Below, piece after piece: positions 53,246 to 63,925 of a DNA stretch of 64,000 nt; within the stretch, counting starts at the first letter, position 1, and each line of letters starts with the position of its first letter. The stretch covers positions 1 to 64,000 of the forward strand of contig JAJZFH010000047.1 in the NCBI GenBank assembly GCA_021805445.1, in the 5' to 3' direction. Position numbers and translations under genes: made by a program. This DNA is from Pseudomonadota bacterium. Its GTDB lineage: Bacteria; Pseudomonadota; Gammaproteobacteria; Burkholderiales; Ferrovaceae. Below the pieces are notes generated by a model. It was not told the DNA's origin, ran no database searches, and was given only the letters and a program-made list of their open reading frames with translations.

Positions 53246-55162
53246 TCAGCGCTGGGGAGACTCTTCCAACACGCTTTTATCCACGACCTGAATGGTGGCC
53301 TTTTGACGCAAAGCGGCCATGAATTCTCCCATGGCTTCATCCCCATAGGCACGCGTCAGACCGGTTTCGGCTTCTTTGCGCGTGGCAGGCTCATTGGTAC
53401 GTCCTGGCTGAACCTGGGTAACCCGCACCAGGACAAAGCCGCCATCGGGGGTGGATGCCCCAGCATAACCGGGCAGATGTCGTCCGTCCACCCGGAAGGC
53501 AGGAGTCACCACCGCGGACGGCAAGCCTCCGCCATAGGCCTGCTGGCGTGTCAAAAGCCGCTCTCCTGACCAGGTCAGGGCAGTATCTGCCTTGCCTGCC
53601 TGCAGTTCCTTGAGTTTTTCTTCTCCCGCCTGACGGGCCAAAACTGCCGCCTGCTGTGCCTCGAGCCGTTGCTCGATGGAAGGGGCCGCCTGTTCCAGCG
53701 GTTTCAGCATCGGCGCTTGATCCATGGTAACCCGGGCGGATATCAGAAAACCGGGGGCTACCTCGATGGCAGGCGTATTGCGGTGATCTCTGATCACCGC
53801 TGAAGAAAACAATGCCTCCTGCAATTTCGGGTTGGACCAGATTCCTATTTTCTGGCCTTTGCCGACCCCGCTGGCCGTCTGCACGGTCAAGTGAAATTTG
53901 TCGGCAGCGGGCTGCAAACTGCCGGATTGCTCGTAAACCAGAGTGGTAAAGCCATCGGCCTCCTCGGAAAATTTCTGGGTGGCTTTCTGACGACGGATCT
54001 CTGCGGACAATTGGGGTGTGACCTCTTCGAGACTCAAATGCTTCGCCTCATGGATATCCGTCACCTGAATCACGTGGTAACCAAAGTCTGTTTCGACGGG
54101 TCCGGAAAATTCTCCCTTATTCAAAGCAAACACGGCTTTCTCGAAGGGGGGGGTCATGGTTCCTCGAGCAAAAAAACCCAGATCTCCACCCTGACGGGCC
54201 GAGCCCGGGTCCTGGGACTCTGCTTTGGCAACCTCCGCAAATTGTTCGGGATGCGCCTGCAAACGCGTCAGTAACTGTTGCGCATGCTGTTTGATCGACT
54301 GCCGTTGGGCTGGGCTGGCCCCATTGGGGACGGTGAGCAGAATATGACGTGCCCGGCGCATTTCCTGTCCGGTCCAACGGCTTTGGTTGGCAGGATCCGC
54401 GTACGCCTTGCGTAATTCTTCGGGAAGGACCGTCACCCCAGTCGCCAATTGATCCGCCGCCAATACCACGTATTGAATGGACACCTGTTCGGGAATACGG
54501 AATTCATCCGGATGCGCCTCATAGTATTTCCTGGCCGCATCGGCAGCCAGTTTGACCTCACCCAAAAATTGGGCCGAACTCAGAGTTGCGGTCGACACGG
54601 CACGGATCTGCCCATCCAGTTCGAGAAAGGCATCGAGGCTTTGCTCGGGCACCCATGCCGTCGTGGTCAGGGATTCCTGTTCCAGTTGCAATTTCAGGTC
54701 GGCGCGCAAACGCTTTTCGAACTGAGCCGGAGTCATTCCCTGAGCGCGTAGCACTTGCTCATAACGAGATTGAGAAAACTTGCCGTTTTCCTGAAACACC
54801 TCTACCCGTGAAATTTCATCCACCAGCAATTGATCCGGGATGGTCAGATGGTGATCGGTGGCGTATTTGAGCAATAACTGGCGATTGACCAGCGCGTTCA
54901 TGGCTTCATAACGCAACGCTGGAGAACTCAAGGAGGCGGAATCCCCTCCCCCTGCACTCTGCATCTGTTGTTGTTGATTGCGCAGGGCGTCACGGAACTC
55001 CGACTGCGAAATAGCGACGCCGTCCACTTTCAGCACTGCCCCCCCCCCACCGCCTTGGCGCAGGTAGTATTCCAGACCAAATAAAGCAAAAGGCACGGTG
55101 ATCAGAACGAGCACCACCTTGGCAACCCAGGTTTGAGACAACGAACGAAAACCATCCAGCAT
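53246..55162 (-). CDS. ppiD: PpiD-like periplasmic chaperone/isomerase
   Basis: Membrane-anchored folding factor near the Sec translocon. The 638-residue protein has a short cytoplasmic start, one membrane helix (about 14-32, VAKVVLVLITVPFALFGLEYYL), a SurA-like N-domain, and a parvulin PPIC domain around residues 265-365 (ARHILLTVPNGASPAQ and GGDLGFFARGTMTPPFEKAVFAL). The ATG at 55162 follows GAGAGG. A terminator-like hairpin sits only 17 bases upstream, with a tRNA-like stretch before that. Convergent with fabI. Confidence 0.92.
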   Translation of the reverse strand: MLDGFRSLSQTWVAKVVLVLITVPFALFGLEYYLRQGGGGGAVLKVDGVAISQSEFRDALRNQQQQMQSAGGGDSASLSSPALRYEAMNALVNRQLLLKYATDHHLTIPDQLLVDEISRVEVFQENGKFSQSRYEQVLRAQGMTPAQFEKRLRADLKLQLEQESLTTTAWVPEQSLDAFLELDGQIRAVSTATLSSAQFLGEVKLAADAARKYYEAHPDEFRIPEQVSIQYVVLAADQLATGVTVLPEELRKAYADPANQSRWTGQEMRRARHILLTVPNGASPAQRQSIKQHAQQLLTRLQAHPEQFAEVAKAESQDPGSARQGGDLGFFARGTMTPPFEKAVFALNKGEFSGPVETDFGYHVIQVTDIHEAKHLSLEEVTPQLSAEIRRQKATQKFSEEADGFTTLVYEQSGSLQPAADKFHLTVQTASGVGKGQKIGIWSNPKLQEALFSSAVIRDHRNTPAIEVAPGFLISARVTMDQAPMLKPLEQAAPSIEQRLEAQQAAVLARQAGEEKLKELQAGKADTALTWSGERLLTRQQAYGGGLPSAVVTPAFRVDGRHLPGYAGASTPDGGFVLVRVTQVQPGRTNEPATRKEAETGLTRAYGDEAMGEFMAALRQKATIQVVDKSVLEESPQR

Positions 55163-55178
55163 GAGAACCTCTCGAAAC

Positions 55179-55202
55179 AAAAAACCGTTGATTTCTCAAC
55201 GG
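55179..55202 (-). terminator. Terminator hairpin directly before ppiD
   Basis: On the minus strand CCGTTGA, loop GAAA, TCAACGG is followed by six T residues: a perfect 7-bp stem with a stable tetraloop. Only 16 bases separate it from the ppiD ATG, so there is no room for a promoter between them. It is either the end of a short RNA or an attenuator for ppiD. Confidence 0.78.
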
Positions 55203-55214
55203 CCTTTGTTGTTT

Positions 55215-55282
55215 TGGCAGAGCGTATGAGACTCGGGCCTGCACTCCCCGGCGTGATAGGCCGACACCAAAACTCATTGAAC
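55215..55282 (-). pseudogene. Degenerate tRNA-Asp remnant (D-arm to CCA)
   Basis: These 68 bases align without gaps to the same part of the intact tRNA-Asp at 63849-63916, with 47 identities by hand count. An 18-base core over the anticodon arm and variable region has 17. The 3' CCA is kept, the anticodon reads ATC in place of GTC, and the anticodon stem still pairs. The T-stem is broken and the 5' acceptor strand is missing, so it cannot be a working tRNA. It fits the displaced 3' part of a tRNA gene left by island integration. It may also be transcribed as a ppiD leader or small RNA. Confidence 0.75.
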
Positions 55283-55289
55283 ACGGGCG

Positions 55290-55318
55290 ATTATAGCCGT
55301 TTCATGATCCAAAGACAA
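55290..55318 (-). promoter_or_regulatory. Strong predicted promoter before the tRNA-like leader and ppiD
   Basis: Minus-strand TTGTCT and a perfect TATAAT with a 17-base spacer. The start would be at about 55284, within two bases of the tRNA-like stretch. Transcripts would run through it into the hairpin at 55179-55202 and, on readthrough, into ppiD. Confidence 0.62.
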
Positions 55319-55363: not shown

Positions 55364-55939
55364 CTAAGGGGGCGGCGGGGGTAGGTCATTCGATTGTTGA
55401 CGGTTCTCCCCAGACCACCATCCCGGCGGGGGCGGTGGAATATTCATCGAGGAGGCCTTCGATCTACCCAATTGTGCTTCCAGCACGGCATTTTCGCGTT
55501 CTTGTGCCGTCAGTTGGTCCCGGAGCACCTGTTTTTCGGCCCGGTCATGCTGTGCGGCCATGATCCTGGCTTTGAGTTCACTTTCGTCAACGGTGACCCG
55601 TGCAGTAACGGACAACTGCTCGTGCCCGTCTTTCAGCAACGAGAAATGCTCGCTGGTTTCGACTATTTTGACCATGGACGCCGTAATGACCTTGGTTTCC
55701 TCCTGAAGATCGTCGTTCTTGAGGGTGGTCCGGGTTTCAATGTACGCACCAACTTCCCGTAGCGCCCGGGTACGAATCTCATCCATGACATTTTGCCGGG
55801 CCATATGGCGACTGTCCGTCTCCCCCATGTCGTACTGCACTGTATAATCGCGCGTCCAGGTTCCCGCATCCGCAGGGAATGCGCACAAGGAGAACAGGAC
55901 CGCTGCCCCCGTCGCTCCGAATTTCAGAGGGGTGATCAA
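55364..55939 (-). CDS. Secreted FlgT/LPP20-like protein with proline-rich tail
   Basis: A 191-residue exported protein, third gene of a trio. A signal peptide ends at FPADA near residue 25. The core HMARQNVMDEIRTRALREVGAYIETRTTL, then QLSVTARVTVDESELKARI, resembles the N-domain of FlgT-type envelope proteins. A coiled coil (about 125-155) and a tail with PPPPPGWW and a final PPPPP follow. The start is probably TTG at 55939, after GGGGGA, because the overlapping ATG is out of frame. I cannot assign a function; an envelope role is inferred from the signal peptide and neighbours. Confidence 0.6.
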   Translation of the reverse strand: MITPLKFGATGAAVLFSLCAFPADAGTWTRDYTVQYDMGETDSRHMARQNVMDEIRTRALREVGAYIETRTTLKNDDLQEETKVITASMVKIVETSEHFSLLKDGHEQLSVTARVTVDESELKARIMAAQHDRAEKQVLRDQLTAQERENAVLEAQLGRSKASSMNIPPPPPGWWSGENRQQSNDLPPPPP

Positions 55940-55942
55940 AAT

Positions 55943-56293
55943 TCATTCCCCCAGCAGCACGCAATACAGGCTCCCTTCCTGCCCGGTCATGGTTTTTTCT
56001 TCCAGTATCTCCACGGGGGGCACCCCCCCTTCTGCAACTTCGTTGACGGTACGGGTGTAGGTCTCGCCGCTTACCCGTTCGCGCCCACCCACCGAGACAC
56101 CCTTTGCCCGAGCCATATTGCGCCGTGCATCGATGATTGCACGCTTGCGCGCGTCCGGGTAACGCACCGGGGCGCAACCCGGAAAAGCCATGCGCCCGGA
56201 GACCATGACCCCATGGGTTGCCGACTCCCACCCGGCTTGCGCGCTCAGAGCGATTCCCCCGAGGAGCACGATCAACAGACTAGTTACCCGCAT
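55943..56293 (-). CDS. Small secreted FlgT-N-like protein
   Basis: A 116-residue exported protein. The signal peptide MRVTSLLIVLLGGIALSAQA is cut near residue 20. The mature part has PDARKRAIIDARRNMARAKGVSVGG, the Ala/Arg helix pattern also seen in its two neighbours, and two Cys residues (PGCAP and LYCVLL) that may pair. The ATG lies inside the end of the upstream lipoprotein gene (14-base overlap), so translation is probably coupled. The function is unknown. It could be part of an envelope ring or channel like the Vibrio FlgO/P/T set, but no flagellar genes are nearby. Confidence 0.62.
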   Translation of the reverse strand: MRVTSLLIVLLGGIALSAQAGWESATHGVMVSGRMAFPGCAPVRYPDARKRAIIDARRNMARAKGVSVGGRERVSGETYTRTVNEVAEGGVPPVEILEEKTMTGQEGSLYCVLLGE

Positions 56294-57035
56294 GATCGGG
56301 GTTTGGAGGCGGCGGCAACGGGGCATTCGGGCCCGGTGACTCGATCACGGTTGTGGTAGTGAAGGGAATTCCCGAAGAGAGACCCTGAGCAGGTTGAGTA
56401 GCCTGTTGCGCATTCTGTTTTTGCAATTTGTCCAGTCGACCGGACAGTTCATCGAAAGCGTGCTTGATATCCCCGCTCGATGCGCTGGCCCCGCGTTCCT
56501 GAAGGACGCGATTCACCTGATTGTAAGGCAGTTTCAGTAGAACATACGCCGTATACGCCCCATCGACCGGACGTACATTTTGATGGACGACTTCGAAGCC
56601 CACAATGGGTACCTGGCCGACCAGGCTGTCGATCAGTTGTGTGTATTGCGACTGGCTATAGTTGCCGCTGTCGTTCTGCGAATACTGTCGCTCCGAACCC
56701 GAGAGAAGTTGGTTGTAGTTCTTCGCCAATCCGTATTCGCCATCCAGCATGGCTTTGCGGATGGCCAGACGTATCTTGTCGGACTCGCCGATACCCACGG
56801 CATAAACCCCGTCATCGTCAGGGGGCGGAGCCTTTATCGCCCACTCCGGAATCTTGGAAATATTGGTTTCAAGGCGCTTCTGTTCGGCCGCCCGCTGATC
56901 TGCGGCAGCCTGCGTATGGATTTTCACTGCAGCGGCCTCATCGGCTGCGGTTTCTTTCATGCTATCGGTGCTCGAACAACCGGACAGGATGACCAGGGTA
57001 CCGAACACGCACACGGCAACGACTTTCTTGTTCAT
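56280..57035 (-). CDS. LPP20-family lipoprotein
   Basis: A 251-residue lipoprotein, first gene of the trio. The signal peptide ends in the lipobox LSGC (Cys20). A charged linker (about 25-60) precedes the LPP20-like domain with PEWAIKAPPPDDDGVYAVGIGESDKIRLAIRKAMLDGEYGLAKNY, read in parts, and FEVVHQNVRPVDGAYTAYVLLKL. A helical segment and a Pro-rich end (PLPPPPNP) follow. The lack of Asp after the Cys (CSSTDS) favours the outer membrane. GGGAGA precedes the ATG. It is divergent from the copper cluster. Confidence 0.75.
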   Translation of the reverse strand: MNKKVVAVCVFGTLVILSGCSSTDSMKETAADEAAAVKIHTQAAADQRAAEQKRLETNISKIPEWAIKAPPPDDDGVYAVGIGESDKIRLAIRKAMLDGEYGLAKNYNQLLSGSERQYSQNDSGNYSQSQYTQLIDSLVGQVPIVGFEVVHQNVRPVDGAYTAYVLLKLPYNQVNRVLQERGASASSGDIKHAFDELSGRLDKLQKQNAQQATQPAQGLSSGIPFTTTTVIESPGPNAPLPPPPNPDHAGN

Positions 57036-57094
57036 CACGGATCTCCCAAGAGTTTGCGCTCGCTCATTGTACACACGAAGCGCAACGACTAGCC

Positions 57095-57119
57095 AGACAC
57101 ACAAGGTTACAGTGTGTCT
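57095..57119. promoter_or_regulatory. Inverted repeat in the cus divergent region
   Basis: AGACACAC and GTGTGTCT form a perfect 8-bp inverted repeat with a 9-base spacer (AAGGTTACA). It lies 47 bases before the first cus-side gene and 59 bases before the divergent lipoprotein gene. Its symmetry and position suit a metal-responsive response regulator or repressor. It does not match the E. coli CusR or CueR boxes as I recall them. Confidence 0.5.
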
Positions 57120-57142
57120 ACATGAACCTTGCTCCCGCAATA

Positions 57143-57154
57143 TACCACGTGGTA
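57143..57154. promoter_or_regulatory. Palindrome TACCACGTGGTA before the cus genes
   Basis: A perfect 12-bp palindrome lies 12 bases upstream of the ATG at 57167. It could be a second operator, or a small hairpin in the mRNA leader. No ribosome site of usual strength separates it from the start codon. Confidence 0.35.
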
Positions 57155-57166
57155 CCATCCCCAATT

Positions 57167-57577
57167 ATGCGAAAAAATGGCAACCACCGCAGAATCTCCT
57201 GGATCGCCCTGCTGATGCTGATCTTCAGTCAGTTCATGCTGGTGGCCCATGCCTGCCCACAGGAGGTCATGGTCCAGCCCCCAGCACCGATGTCCGTGTC
57301 ATCCATGCCTCCGGACTGTGCGCAAATGAGCCAGATGAGTCAGCCTCGCAAGGATATGTCTCCCCTGCTCTGCCTTGACCACTGCAAACAATCATCCCTT
57401 TCCCACCAGACATCGGTTCCCGACTCATCCTGTGCAGTGTCCCAGATTTTTCTGGGAGTAGTGCACACGGACATGCAGAGGGTTCCACAACGAACGTCCT
57501 ATCTTCATCGTTCTCTTCGTTTTCTGATCATCTCACCCCCCCCTCTCCGCATTCAGCATCAAGTCTTCCGTATCTAG
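57167..57577 (+). CDS. Cys-rich secreted protein of copper clusters
   Basis: A 136-residue exported protein at the head of the cus cluster. The signal peptide MRKNGNHRRISWIALLMLIF... ends near AHA at residue 29. The mature part has Cys in ACPQ, PDCAQ, LCLDHCK and SSCAV, and several Met-rich spots (MSQMSQ, PPAPMSV). Similar small proteins with a CxxHC-like motif precede copper RND genes in betaproteobacteria, as far as I remember. It may bind Cu(I) in the periplasm. No enzyme motif is present. It starts 131 bases from the divergent lipoprotein gene. Confidence 0.6.
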   Translation: MRKNGNHRRISWIALLMLIFSQFMLVAHACPQEVMVQPPAPMSVSSMPPDCAQMSQMSQPRKDMSPLLCLDHCKQSSLSHQTSVPDSSCAVSQIFLGVVHTDMQRVPQRTSYLHRSLRFLIISPPPLRIQHQVFRI

Positions 57578-57598
57578 TTTTTTCTCCTGATGACGAGC

Positions 57599-57622
57599 AG
57601 TTTCGTGGAGCGCCACGAAACT
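57599..57622 (+). promoter_or_regulatory. Intercistronic hairpin before cusC
   Basis: AGTTTCGTGG and CCACGAAACT form a perfect 10-bp stem around the 4-base loop AGCG, between the Cys-rich gene and cusC. No T run follows, so it is not a simple terminator. It may be a processing or stability element that sets cusC levels relative to the upstream gene. Confidence 0.5.
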
Positions 57623-57653
57623 GGTGCTTGCATTATTCTGGAGGAATTCACCC

Positions 57654-58904
57654 TTGTTCAAGTCAAAACATTTTCTGTTGAGGTATTTTGTATCCTCATC
57701 GTTCCTTCTTGCCTGGAGCGCATCCTGTCACGCCCTGAGTTATCAAGAGGCCATCGATCAGGCGGAAATCCACGCCTCGGAACTCAAAGCCCGTCAAAAT
57801 TCGTTGACGGCCGCACAACAACGACAGATCTCAGCCGGGGAGTTACCTGACCCGAAACTGGTCACGGGAATAAATAACATGCCTGTGCAAGGCGAGCAGG
57901 CCTGGAGTACAGGCCAGAATTTCCTGACCATGGAGGTGATCGGTGTGCGGCAGGAAATGACCAACGGAGGAAAGCGGGAGGCGGCCCGTCACATGGCTCA
58001 GGCCAATGTAAGCCGTGCTGACCTGGAGTTGGAAGTGGCACGCTTGACGATCCGGCGCCAAACGCTTTTAGCCTGGCTAAAGGTCTATTACGCGGAGCAA
58101 CGGTATAAGGTGCTGGACCAATTGGAAGCAGAAAATCGTCTCCAATCATTGGCTTCGACTGCACAATTGGCAGCCGCCCAGGGCACCGCCGAGGAAAGCC
58201 TGCAAGCCCGAAGCGAAGCGGCTACCCTGGCTGACCGCAAGGATGAACTGGTACGCGACATTACCACTGCCCGCATCGAGTTGTCCCGATGGATCGGAGC
58301 AGCGGCCGACCAACCCTTGACGGGCGGTCCTCCTGCCAAGTTGGAGCCTACGGAGCATTTGCACCATACGCTGGACAAACATCCGGATATTGCCGTATTT
58401 GAGGCTCAGAAGGCTTCAGCCCAGGCGGCTGTGGACTTGGCGGAAGCCGCCAAACGACCGGATTGGGGCGTGGAAGTGGACTATGAGCACCTGGGTCCCC
58501 CCTTTGGTGACATGGTAAACGTTCAGTTCACCATCGATTTGCCCCTATTTGCTCGAACCCGACAAAACCCCCAGATCGCGGCCCAGCGACAGGAACTGGA
58601 ACAGGTCGCCGAGGAAAGGGAAACCATGTTGCGCCAACATACCATGGACCTGGAAACCCAACTGGCCGAGCAAACTTCTCTGTCGCGTCAGATTGAGCGC
58701 GTCGATCAGGAATGGCTCCCTCTTTCTCAGGAAAAGTTTCGCTTGGCAATGGCTGCCTATCGTTCCGGCAAAGGTTCGTTGACAGCCGTACTCGAATCCC
58801 GCCGTTCGATACTGGACATCAAAATGAAACGAGTTGATCTGGAAGAGCGGCGGAGCGACGCGGAAACTGTCTTACGCTATCTGTCCGAAGAGGTGCAACC
58901 ATGA
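57654..58904 (+). CDS. cusC: Outer membrane efflux channel (CusC/CzcC, TolC family)
   Basis: Outer-membrane channel of a heavy-metal RND pump. The start is a TTG placed nine bases after GGAGG; a GTG at 57624 has no such site. The signal peptide ends near SCHA (residue 27). The 416-residue protein has the OEP repeats, with LSYQEAIDQAEIHASELKAR near the start and long helices such as RQELEQVAEERETMLRQHTMDLETQLAEQ, in parts. No lipobox Cys is obvious at the signal end. Its stop overlaps cusB. Confidence 0.88.
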   Translation: MFKSKHFLLRYFVSSSFLLAWSASCHALSYQEAIDQAEIHASELKARQNSLTAAQQRQISAGELPDPKLVTGINNMPVQGEQAWSTGQNFLTMEVIGVRQEMTNGGKREAARHMAQANVSRADLELEVARLTIRRQTLLAWLKVYYAEQRYKVLDQLEAENRLQSLASTAQLAAAQGTAEESLQARSEAATLADRKDELVRDITTARIELSRWIGAAADQPLTGGPPAKLEPTEHLHHTLDKHPDIAVFEAQKASAQAAVDLAEAAKRPDWGVEVDYEHLGPPFGDMVNVQFTIDLPLFARTRQNPQIAAQRQELEQVAEERETMLRQHTMDLETQLAEQTSLSRQIERVDQEWLPLSQEKFRLAMAAYRSGKGSLTAVLESRRSILDIKMKRVDLEERRSDAETVLRYLSEEVQP

Positions 58905-60157
58905 ATCGAAAAAGCGTATGGGCACTCATCGCAGCCATCGCGGGATTGATGACGATTGGCGGTCTCGCAGGGTACAGACTGGGACAGCGTACTTCCAACC
59001 GCCCACCGATGGAAATTCCTTCAGCCCAAACCCTGCCCAGCCAAACGGGACAGCGAATCGTGTACTGGTATGACCCCATGAAACCAGACCAGCACTTTGA
59101 CAAGCCGGGCAAGTCGCCCTTCATGGACATGGACCTCGTCCCCATGGTAGTCACTGAGGATCCAAAGGAAATCGATAAAGGCGTGAGGATCGATCCCCGT
59201 CTACTTCAAAATACGGGGGTTAGACTGGCCTTGGTAGAGCGAGGTCCTCTGGACCTTACGGTTGAAGCAGAAGGCACGCTGACTTTTGATGAACGCCAGG
59301 TAACGATCATACAAGCTCGTTCTGCGGGGTTGGTGGAACGAGTCTATGCCCTTGCGCCCAACGATGTAATTGACGCAGGTGCGCCCTTGGCAGATTTGCG
59401 TATTCCCGAATGGTATGGCGCACAGATGGAGTTCATTGCCCTGCGAAAGGCCAATGAACCTGATTTGGCCGCTGCGGCACGAAACCGTTTGAAGCAATTG
59501 GGGATGACTGAAGAGCAGGTTACCCACCTGGATCACAGCGATGCGCCCCAGGCTGTGGTGACGGTAACGGCCCCACAGGGAGGCGTCTTGAGCGAGTTGG
59601 GGGTACGCGCAGGAATGACGGTCACTCCCGGTCAAACACTGGCGCGCATCAATGGTCTGGGCACGATCTGGATGGATACAGAAGTCCCGGAAGCACTGGG
59701 GCAGGGAATCGCAGTGGGGCAATCGGTATCAGCAACCTTCACGGGACTACCGGGACAGACCTTCACTGGAAGAATCATAACCGTGCTGCCTGTTTTGAAT
59801 GTGGATACCCGAACACTACGGTTGCGGATCGAATGGACCAATCCGGGGAGGCTATTACGCCCCGGGATGTACGCCAAAGTTCGGATTGAACGGCATACCC
59901 AAAGCCACGTCCTCATGGTACCTGCAGAAGCAGTCATCGTCACGGGGGAACGCTATGTGGTCATCACGATGGGGCAGGAAGGACATTTTTTGCCTGTGGA
60001 AGTGGTGCCGGGACGGGAAGGCAAGGGTAAAACCGAAATCCTCTCCGGATTGCAGGAGGGTCAAAAAATAGTGACTTCCGGACAATTCCTGATCGATTCA
60101 GAAGCCAGCCTCAAGGGCGTATTGACGCGCATGGAAAAAACGGGGGCGCCACAATGA
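58901..60157 (+). CDS. cusB: Periplasmic adaptor of Cu/Ag efflux (CusB)
   Basis: Membrane-fusion protein linking the inner-membrane pump to the outer channel. The 418-residue protein has an N-terminal membrane helix or signal anchor (about 7-25), then the heavy-metal-binding segment [27 protein letters not shown] (about 52-80, in parts), typical of Cu/Ag systems. The lipoyl/barrel-sandwich and beta-barrel domains follow ([38 protein letters not shown]). The Met residues fit Cu(I) relay. Four-base overlaps at both ends show tight coupling. Confidence 0.93.
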
Positions 60158-63100
60158 TCGCCCGGCTCATCCGCTGGTCGATCAGCCATCGCTTTTTGGT
60201 TTTGCTGGCTACTTTGCTGCTCCTGTTGGGAGGACTATGGGCAGTCCGCACCAATCCTGTGGACGCCTTGCCGGATCTCTCCGATGTTCAGGTGATCATC
60301 CGTACCTCATTTCCGGGGCAAGCCCCCCAGATTGTTGAGGATCAAGTCACCTATCCCCTGACCACCACCATGCTGTCCGTTCCTGGAGCAAAAACCGTAC
60401 GGGGTTATTCTTTCTTCGGCGATTCTTTTGTCTATGTCCTGTTTGAGGACGGGACGGATCTTTACTGGGCCCGTTCCAGGGTTCTCGAATATCTCAACCA
60501 GATTCAAAATCGCTTGCCAGTCACGGCCAAATCCTCCATGGGTCCCGATGCGACAGGAATCGGTTGGATTTATGAATATGCGTTGGTGGATCACAGCGGT
60601 CAGCACGATCTGGGAGACCTGCGCGCCCTACAGGACTGGTTTCTCAAGTATGAACTCAAAAGTTTGCCGAATGTGGCCGAAGTGGCCTCCATCGGCGGCA
60701 TGGTACGCGAGTACCAAGTGGTACCAGACCCGGCCAAACTTGCGGCCTACCACGTCACAGGGGATCAGATTGTGGCAGCCCTGCGTGGCGGCAATCAGGA
60801 AGCCGGAGGGGGCGTGGTGGAGCAGGGTGAGGCGGAGTACATGGTGCGCGCCACAGGTTATCTCAAAACGCTGGAAGATTTCAGGACGATCCCCTTGACG
60901 ACCCATGACGGTTTTTCTGTGCGTTTGGGAGATGTAGCGCGGGTTCAAACAGGTCCACAAATGCGCCGGGGGATAGCCGAACTCGATGGGCAGGGGGAAG
61001 TCGCGGGCGGGGTGGTAATTTTACGATCAGGGAAAAATGCGCGAGACACCCTCACCGCCGTGAAAGAGAAATTGATCTCTCTGCAAAAAAGTCTGCCCTC
61101 TGGGGTGGAGATCGTCCCCACTTATGACCGCAGTCAGTTAATCGACCGTGCCATAGCCAACCTGGAACATAAACTGATCGAGGAATTTATCGTAGTGGCG
61201 CTGGTCTGCGGATTATTTCTGCGCCATTTCCGATCCGCTCTGGTCGCCATCATCTCTTTACCCTTGGGGGTGTTGGTGGCTTTTGTCATGATGCGCTACC
61301 AAGGCATCAACGGCAATATCCTGTCTTTGGGAGGAATCGCCATTGCGGTAGGAGCCATGGTGGACGCCGCCGTGGTCATGATCGAAAATGCCCATAAAAA
61401 AATCGAACATTGGCAGCACCATCACCCAGGATTACTTCTGGAAGGTGCCGCCCACTGGGCGGTAGTGACAGAAGCAGCCGTAGAGGTCGGGCCCGCACTG
61501 TTTTTCAGTTTGCTCATCATCACCCTGTCGTTCGTGCCCGTGTTCACACTGGAAGCACAGGAAGGACGCCTCTTTGCTCCGCTGGCCTTTACAAAAAGTT
61601 ATGCCATGGCAGGGGCAGCGGGGCTGGCGGTGACTTTGATCCCCATCCTGATGGGGTACTGGATTCGTGGCAGGATCCCTGAGGAACGAGCCAACCCCCT
61701 GAATCGCTGGTTGATTGCGCTGTACCGACCTCTGCTGAATAGAGCCTTGCAGCATCCCAAAGCGACTTTGGCCACCGCACTGGTGGTGCTGCTGACGAGC
61801 ATATGGCCCATCTCCCAACTGGGTGGGGAATTTCTCCCTCCCCTTGACGAGGGAGACCTGCTCTATATGCCCTCTGCGCTGCCTGGCTTATCTGCTGCCA
61901 AGGCTGCCGAGTTGCTTCAACAAACCGACCGCCTTATCAAGACCGTGCCCGAGGTGAAGCGTGTCTTTGGCAAGGCAGGACGAGCCGATACGGCGACAGA
62001 TCCCGCTCCCTTGGAAATGTTTGAAACCACGGTCCAGTTCAAGCCCCGCGACCAGTGGCGTCCAGGCATGACTCCAGAGAAGTTGGTGGCGGAACTTGAT
62101 CGCACGGTTCGTATTCCCGGACTGTCCAATTTCTGGGTTCCACCCATTCGCAACCGCATCGACATGTTGGCCACAGGAATCAAGAGCCCCATCGGAGTGA
62201 AGGTTTCAGGACCGGATCTGGCCACGGTGGAATCCGTCGCCATGGCTGTGGAAAAGGTGGCGCAGTCAATCCCGGGCGTGACCTCCGCCTTTGCCGAGCG
62301 TCTGACCGGAGGGCGATACCTTACGGTGAATATCGATCGTGTGGCAGCAGCGCGTTATGGTCTCAACATCGATACCATTCAAGCCGCAGTGACCACTTTG
62401 GTCGGTGGTGACGCCATCGGAGAAACTGTCGAGGGAACGGCACGTTTTCCTATCAATGTGCGTTATCCCCGTGCGGATCGGGATTCATTGCATGCTCTGC
62501 GCCAATTGCCCCTGTTCACGCCCAGCGGGCAGTGGATCACCCTGGGAACGGTGGCCCAGGTAAACTACAGCCAGGGCCCCCCCATGCTGAAAAGTGAAAA
62601 TGCGCGTCTGGCGAGTTGGGTTTATGTGGATGTGCGGGGACGAGATCTGGCTTCGGTGGTGGGAAACTTACGCCGAGCGGTGACGCGTGAGATCCCCCTG
62701 CCTGCCGGAGTGAGCATGACTTACTCCGGTCAGTTCGAGTACATGGAACGCGCCAATGCACGACTGAAGATTGTGGTCCCGATCACCTTGCTGATCATTT
62801 TTGTATTGCTCACCCTGATATTCGAGCGGTTGGACGAGGCGGCGCTGATCCTGCTGACATTGCCCTTTGCCTTGGCTGGAGGAATTTGGCTGCTCTATGG
62901 ATTACATTACAACTTCTCCGTAGCCACGGGAGTGGGGTTCATTGCGTTGGCTGGAGTCTCCGCCGAATTTGGCGTAGTGATGCTGATCTACCTGCGCCAA
63001 GCACTGGATGCTCGCTTGAGCGGGGGCCAAACGCTCACCCGCGCATTGCTTCTGGAAGCGATTCGCGAAGGGGCCGTCTTGCGGGTCCGCCCCAAAGCCA

Positions 63101-63339
63101 TGACCGTAACTGTAATTCTGGCTGGTCTCATGCCTCTTTTGTGGGGACAGGGCACAGGATCCGAGATCATGAGTCGAATCGCCGCGCCCATGCTGGGCGG
63201 AATGGTGACGGCGCCACTACTGTCCATGTTTATCATTCCGGTGGGCTATTTATTACTGCGCCAACCCCGCAGATTCGGCAGGCACTGGCATTTCTTCAAC
63301 CGCAACACCTCCACTACTGAAAGGAACAGATCACCATGA
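60154..63339 (+). CDS. cusA: Cu(I)/Ag(I) RND efflux pump (CusA)
   Basis: Proton-driven inner-membrane pump of the heavy-metal RND group. The 1061-residue protein has twelve predicted membrane helices in two halves. The start [23 protein letters not shown] is typical. The TM4 motif [19 protein letters not shown], with the proton-relay Asp, is of the CusA kind and not the CzcA kind. Periplasmic blocks such as [18 protein letters not shown] and [18 protein letters not shown] are conserved. With CusB and CusC it forms a tripartite exporter. The stop overlaps the cusF ATG. Confidence 0.93.
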
Positions 63340-63704
63340 ATACGCTTCGCATCACGACAATGGCTCTGGCTTTGCTCTCTGCCACTGATTTGGCTTTGGC
63401 TGACGGTATGAACAGCATGAACATGAAAGACCTGTCGATGTCGGGCCAGAGGACTGACAAAATGACAGGAAAGGTTCACCATGCAACTGGGATTGTAAAA
63501 AAAATGGATGCATCTGCCGGTCAGGTAACAATTTCGCACGGCCCGATCAACAGCATTCCATGGCCTCCCATGACCATGACATTTGCCGTGAAGGACAAAC
63601 AGATGCTCCGTCAGGTAACCACCGGGGAAAAAATTGATTTCGACCTTGTACAGTCGGGTAAAGACCAATACACCGTGACCAAAATCAGTCCGGCCCATGA
63701 CTGA
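63336..63704 (+). CDS. cusF: Periplasmic Cu/Ag chaperone CusF
   Basis: A 122-residue periplasmic metallochaperone that hands Cu(I)/Ag(I) to CusBA. A signal peptide ends near LALA (about residue 22). The mature N-part is Met-rich. The CusF site is complete: His68 in SHGPI, Trp76 and the pair Met79/Met81 in WPPMTMTF. That set is diagnostic of CusF. Here it is a separate gene at the end of the operon; in some relatives it is fused to CusB. It overlaps cusA by four bases. Confidence 0.94.
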
Positions 63705-63810
63705 TGAAATATATCAACGCTGGGTCGTTACATCAGATACTCAACCACTTTGAGCCGTTTGATTTACTCGCCACTACTTGAATTGTATAAAATTTTTATG
63801 AGTATGGAAA

Positions 63811-63845
63811 ACGGGTCAGCAGAAAAACTGCTGACCCGTTTGTTT
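63811..63845. terminator. Bidirectional terminator between cusF and tRNA-Asp
   Basis: ACGGGTCAGCAG and CTGCTGACCCGT form a perfect 12-bp stem with an AAAAA loop. A TTGTTTT tail follows on the plus strand, ending the cus operon. On the minus strand, TTTT follows after one base, so it can also end the tRNA transcript that comes from the right. Confidence 0.82.
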
Positions 63846-63848
63846 TGC

Positions 63849-63925
63849 TGGCGGAGTGGACGGGACTCGAACCCGCGACCCCCGGCGTGACAGGCCGGTA
63901 TTCTAACCAACTGAACTACCACTCC
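63849..63925 (-). tRNA. tRNA-Asp (anticodon GTC)
   Basis: A complete tRNA of 77 bases with encoded CCA. The acceptor stem pairs GGAGTGG with CCACTCC, the discriminator base is G, as in tRNA-Asp, the anticodon loop is CTGTCAC, and the T-loop TTCGAGT is standard. It lies 30 bases downstream of the tRNA-Val gene, so the two are probably one transcript. A diverged copy of its 3' part is found upstream of ppiD. Confidence 0.97.

Follow-up and report, generated by a model that had tools for sequence, protein, structure and literature searches.

We analysed a stretch of 64,000 nucleotides (the window) from contig JAJZFH010000047.1 of the Ferrovum genome GCA_021805445.1, in which the elements of the locus described here all lie on the minus strand (Table 1). 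The gene at the end of the locus is ppiD, with both domains of the protein identified by Pfam (SurA_N_3 6e-44, Rotamase 1.9e-31). The initial annotation had placed a tRNA-like RNA, with a promoter and a terminator of its own, directly before this gene. The promoter sequence TTGTCT-N17-TATAAT and the hairpin CCGTTGA-GAAA-TCAACGG with its T6 are both present in the positions described, with the correction that the T6 ends 16 rather than 17 bases before the ATG. An RNA made from about 55284 to 55179 is predicted to measure about 105-106 bases. An intact tRNA-Asp gene lies 8.6 kb upstream of the tRNA-like stretch. Within the window by itself, these signals do not exceed chance, since the promoter scan gave one promoter-like site for 0.8 expected in 1.3 kb, and the terminator scan gave one terminator-like site for 1.6 expected and listed the hairpin on the plus strand only. 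Hence, the case rests on the comparison across genomes.

Table 1. Features of the ppiD locus, in positions of the window.
Feature	Position	Strand	Description
Putative sigma-70-type promoter TTGTCT-N17-TATAAT	55290..55318	-	-35 TTGTCT 55318-55313, spacer 17, -10 TATAAT 55295-55290
tRNA-Asp remnant	55215..55282	-	Homology firm over 55263-55215 (anticodon stem to CCA), doubtful on the D-arm side
TCAATG block	55275..55280	-	Speculative, possible antiterminator; invariant in 6/6 remnant genomes; may base-pair with the hairpin's 5' arm
GTTTTGG and CCAAAAC segments	55273-55267 and 55217-55211	-	Flank the core
Intrinsic-terminator hairpin CCGTTGA-GAAA-TCAACGG and T6	55179..55202	-	Hairpin 55202-55185, T6 55184-55179
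GTTTCGAGAGGTTCTC with likely ribosome-binding site	55163..55178	-	Purine-rich, by eye; 16 bases between T6 and ATG
ppiD	53246..55162	-	ATG 55162-55160; SurA-like N-terminal and PPIC rotamase domains
Intact tRNA-Asp(GTC)	63849..63925	-	Adjoins tRNA-Val; no second copy found in this assembly
DNA between intact tRNA-Asp and remnant	55364..63848	.	Content differs among species

The resemblance of the stretch to a tRNA is real, but it is not recognised as one. Its local alignment to the intact tRNA-Asp of the window scores 54, compared with a mean of 18.9 and a maximum of 35 in 1000 shuffles, none of which reached 54. Among the 40 tRNAs of its own genome, tRNA-Asp gives this score and the runner-up 26. 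For five of the six remnants found in the genus (see below), tRNA-Asp is by far the best of the 40 tRNAs, with scores of 48-64 in the four close relatives, and the core of the sixth, L071, scores 28, which is within chance (null maximum 35). The alignment extends to the GCCA in five of the six remnants, so the fragment reaches the tRNA end and is not internal. ARAGORN and Rfam do not call the stretch of the window a tRNA, and in both the window and L074 the Rfam tRNA model is absent from the matches even at E up to 10 and no Rfam small RNA matches at the gathering score. The 5' acceptor strand is not recognisable in the remnant, and the anticodon position reads ATC in three of the six. Judging from these alignments, descent from tRNA-Asp is close to certain: the stretch is a degenerate, displaced copy rather than a functional tRNA, which would be recognised as such and have an acceptor stem and the anticodon GUC. 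When its own genome was searched for further copies of the promoter (E up to 1), the matches were the locus itself and tRNA-Asp only. Short matches to the 5' part of the core in L065 and L066 were discarded, as they apparently lie inside a membrane-transporter reading frame (by eye).

To place the locus among its relatives, 32 genomes of the family were searched with a ppiD query starting at codon 2. A match was found in 30 genomes, and four of these with the C-terminal part only were excluded, leaving 26 loci with a ppiD start. An intact tRNA-Asp lies within 700 bases upstream in 14 of them, the remnant in six, and neither in the other six (L025-L030); a hairpin of the CCGTTGA-GAAA-TCAACGG type is carried by 14 of the 26. 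The remnant is present in six of the eight genomes of the genus, and among the publicly named close genomes are Ferrovum sp. and F. myxofaciens P3G; in the latter the remnant lies in NZ_JPOQ01000027.1. Loci L069, L070, L072, L074 and L071 belong to genomes G009, G011, G013, G007 and G008, respectively, and each was counted once.

Promoter and hairpin are conserved in all six remnant genomes. The promoter spacing is always 17 and both hexamers are identical in four genomes, the variants being one base in L074 (TTGTTT) and two in L071 (TTGTCA, TACAAT). The 18 positions of the hairpin show no difference in any of the 15 pairs of genomes, and the stretch from the T-run to the ATG is free of substitutions in the five close genomes, with one extra T in two of them. 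In two independent pairs (L069/L072 and L070/L074), we counted 1 difference in 24 positions of the promoter hexamers, 0 in 36 of the hairpin, and 0 in 44 from the T-run to the ATG. The same pairs differ at 16 of 173 core positions versus 85 of 473 four-fold sites of ppiD, the core changing at about half the rate of the latter. When core and four-fold sites are compared pair by pair, p is below 0.05 in 10 of the 15 pairs, 0.05 in one, and not significant in four (0.51 for the window and L072). Relative to L071, 40 of 83 or, in the pairwise count, 41 of 85 core positions differ, against 0/18 in the hairpin, 2/12 in the hexamers, and 6/22 from the T-run to the ATG. The length of the core is 84-85 bases in all six. 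As sequence, the arrangement of a promoter and then a terminator before the start codon is thus conserved, and the proposal of the initial annotation, which was to be given up if close strains lacked these signals, is not refuted.

The locus L071 bears on where transcription of ppiD may start. Its upstream gene is divergent and begins at 2006, and the start should therefore lie in the 175 bases 2007-2181. The sole promoter match in this interval is TTGTCA-17-TACAAT, for which 0.5 matches are expected by chance, so such a match is not rare. A transcript that starts there must cross the hairpin to reach ppiD. The terminator scan of L071 gave two terminator-like sites for 0.1 expected, corresponding to both strands of the hairpin and thus including the direction of ppiD. 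In the other five remnant genomes the upstream genes are co-directional with ppiD, and readthrough from these could also feed it.

The gene order in the relatives indicates where the hairpin came from. In eight loci, two of the same genus (L014, L015) and six of sister genera (L016-L021), tRNA-Val, intact tRNA-Asp, the same hairpin, and ppiD are contiguous. The hairpin behind the intact tRNA-Asp of these loci is the ppiD hairpin, in some cases with small changes in the loop. Hence, the hairpin derives from the terminator of the tRNA unit. The distance from hairpin to ATG, T-run included, is 22-25 bases in all eight genomes of the genus, leaving no room for a promoter, as had been claimed for the window. 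It is 75-79 bases at the six loci of sister genera that share the hairpin, and a TAGACT-like -10 element can be seen by eye in this interval. The promoter scan of L017 found none between hairpin and ATG; its sole site in the ppiD direction falls within tRNA-Asp, and no terminator was listed although the hairpin is present. Most simply, the genus would have lost the room for a promoter before the remnant arose. In the ppiD tree the six remnant genomes form one clade, with a support of 83/84 that is below the 95/80 mark, and they are separated from the two intact genus rows in 200 of 200 bootstrap trees when the comparison is limited to these. A single origin of the remnant may be presumed. Five of the six have an intact tRNA-Val/tRNA-Asp pair 4.2-9.0 kb upstream of the remnant, and no tRNA-Asp was found in the sixth assembly (G008, 86% complete).

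The presence of an intact tRNA gene and a fragment of it a few kilobases away is reminiscent of an integration footprint. Fragments of tRNA genes are described as a widespread product of integration (PMC9897764), and Islander recognises tRNA-targeted islands by two features that share one orientation, an intact tRNA gene and, downstream of it, a 3' fragment (PMC4383910). We find this configuration in the window and four relatives, and the uninterrupted site in L014, L015, and L016-L021. In the Islander table the anticodon-centred class makes up 2083 of 3919 islands (PMC4383910), and a remnant whose homology runs from the anticodon stem to the CCA would fit this class. Unlike these islands, the interval has no integrase here, and the fragment has a conserved promoter and would serve as the leader of a gene. 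Tyrosine integrases (PF00589) occur at eight places in the genome of the window, none on contig C42. They occur at 15, 8, 5, and 6 places in G007, G009, G011, and G013, none on the contig with the tRNA and the remnant; G008 has six, all away from its short contig with the remnant. In the slot of the window (55364-63704), three genes without Pfam match adjoin the remnant, followed by Cus-type metal efflux genes. About 2 kb beside the remnant are common to five genomes, with a weak, below cut-off match to LPP20 there in L074. The part beyond is variable: four genomes have Cus-type efflux genes there, assigned in two cases from DNA similarity, and F. myxofaciens P3G has PQQ/NHL-repeat and creatininase genes. 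In L069, a PIN-domain gene (L069:1161-1688) is the neighbour of the intact tRNA-Asp. A tandem duplication would fit the remnant too, given that in L070 (978-1110) the terminator behind the intact tRNA-Asp equals the ppiD hairpin but for one compensated base pair; the terminator in this position is a different one in the window, L069, L072, and L074. Integration at the anticodon region of the tRNA is the likely origin, and tandem duplication is less likely and ranks below it. We grade integration no higher because these contigs have no integrase and the hairpin of L070 fits duplication.

These observations suggest a history of the locus. In the ancestor of the genus, tRNA-Val, tRNA-Asp, the terminator, and ppiD would have stood in a row, with ppiD so near the terminator that its expression would have required readthrough. 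DNA would then have ended up between the intact tRNA-Asp and a second, truncated copy beside ppiD, severing ppiD from the promoter of the tRNA unit. Transcription would now start at about 55284, from the promoter at the edge of the remnant; most transcripts would stop at the inherited terminator, giving the RNA of about 105 bases, and some would read through to make the ppiD mRNA. We favour with moderate confidence the reading that the tRNA-Asp remnant, with its conserved promoter and the terminator inherited from the tRNA unit, acts as a leaky leader of ppiD. On the evidence of gene order and conservation, production of PpiD probably depends on transcription leaking through this inherited stop signal. 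The initial annotation had left a choice between a short RNA and a readthrough leader; the conservation of promoter and terminator in all six genomes and the lack of space for a promoter past the hairpin better support the leader, in the form of a tRNA-Asp relic, and the short RNA would likely be a by-product, with no support for a function of its own.

The same elements could be the leftovers of a dead pseudogene, with ppiD read from the upstream genes or from another promoter. The decay of the core, about half of which differs in L071, its ordinary folding, and the co-directional upstream genes in five of the six genomes would all agree with this. Yet the promoter hexamers and the hairpin are nearly invariant where four-fold sites differ by 16-34% among the five close genomes, and the gene upstream in L071 is divergent. 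We therefore regard a plain pseudogene as unlikely. Another possibility is that the remnant became a small RNA in its own right, about 105 bases long and directed at other targets. It would have its own promoter and terminator and a constant core length, and four base pairs are changed on both sides when shuffles give 1.3 on average (4 of 500 shuffles are as high). However, three of these four double changes come from L071, whose alignment is unsure, and one from L072, and the structure on which they were counted was itself built from these six sequences. The core folds have z-scores of -0.10 to -0.98, no more stable than shuffled sequence, the folds differ between genomes, the RNAalifold covariation term is only -0.08, and Rfam has no match at the gathering score for the window or L074. 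A structured RNA is thus poorly supported, and a dedicated small RNA seems very improbable. The segments GTTTTGG and CCAAAAC, which had been thought to pair and enclose the core, are present, but the helix finds no support: they are invariant in the five close genomes and so show no covariation, in L071 four pairs are lost, two to a gap and two to mismatches, and the core that they would enclose is not stabler than shuffles.

Regulation within the leader was considered in the form of an attenuator, in which TCAATG near the 5' end would base-pair with the hairpin's 5' arm, delay the terminator, and tune ppiD. The block is invariant, and in a transcript ending in the 5' arm its pairing has a probability of 0.87-1.0 in five of the six genomes. 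Against this, the value is 0.02 in L072 and drops to 0.75 in L071 once the loop is made, and adding the 3' arm gives the window a best fold 7 kcal/mol lower, in which this pairing is absent. Shuffling the alignment columns yields an equally long run in 415 of 5000 trials with all six genomes and in 203 of 2000 with the five close ones, and shuffled single cores give the same pairing length in 15.5% (window), 16% (L070), and 67% (L071) of cases. The TCAATG antiterminator is not significant relative to the column shuffles, and we hold an attenuator to be improbable. We give equally little credence to its evolutionary version, where a displaced tRNA fragment would have been exapted as a regulated leader, the competition between TCAATG, which lies in or beside the former D-arm region, and the old terminator setting how much of the periplasmic chaperone PpiD is made in acidophilic iron oxidisers. 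A leader peptide starting at the ATG at 55277 is barely credible: the codon lies about 7 bases past the predicted start and is kept in all six genomes, but, judged by eye, it lacks a ribosome-binding site, a one-base deletion in L070 puts it out of frame, and in L071 the reading frame is cut short.

Genes encoding tRNAs and proteins are known to share operons, as in the tRNA-tufB operon of E. coli, and copies of tRNA 3' ends occur in a short RNA, the rtT RNA of the E. coli tyrT operon. The loci L014 and L015 are like the former in that a protein gene follows tRNA genes with no promoter room past their terminator; unlike in that operon, the tRNA next to ppiD is decayed in the remnant genomes and is separated from the gene by an intrinsic terminator. 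The predicted short RNA resembles rtT RNA in containing a copy of a tRNA 3' end, but has no tandem repeats, derives from a different tRNA, and would be the leader of ppiD. Premature termination is reported in 5' UTRs of E. coli (PMC7815308), where, as here, a terminator stands between promoter and start codon; the present hairpin, a predicted terminator, differs in being inherited from a tRNA unit. The literature searched contained no description of this remnant/ppiD locus and no map of Ferrovum transcript ends. Fragments of tRNA genes are common scars of integration and are usually counted as noise. Here one of them has apparently turned into the promoter-leader of a chaperone gene and has been kept in six species. 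If true, the locus would show how a gene downstream of a tRNA gene can be rewired by an insertion there, and ppiD would be a natural case of a gene relying on leakage through a tRNA terminator.

A few observations concern the surroundings of the tRNA genes more broadly. From 79 named loci, the comparison used L069-L113 without about L076-L084. Many of the named betaproteobacterial loci compared have tRNA-Val alone before ppiD, and in the Stenotrophomonas loci L109, L110, L112, and L113 three or four tRNA-Asp genes in tandem lie upstream of ppiD. An HU-like gene (by eye) ends 8 bases before tRNA-Val (L183 1-600; C42:63800 onward in the genome of the window), and the shortness of this gap suggests that the HU-like gene, tRNA-Val, and tRNA-Asp form one transcription unit.
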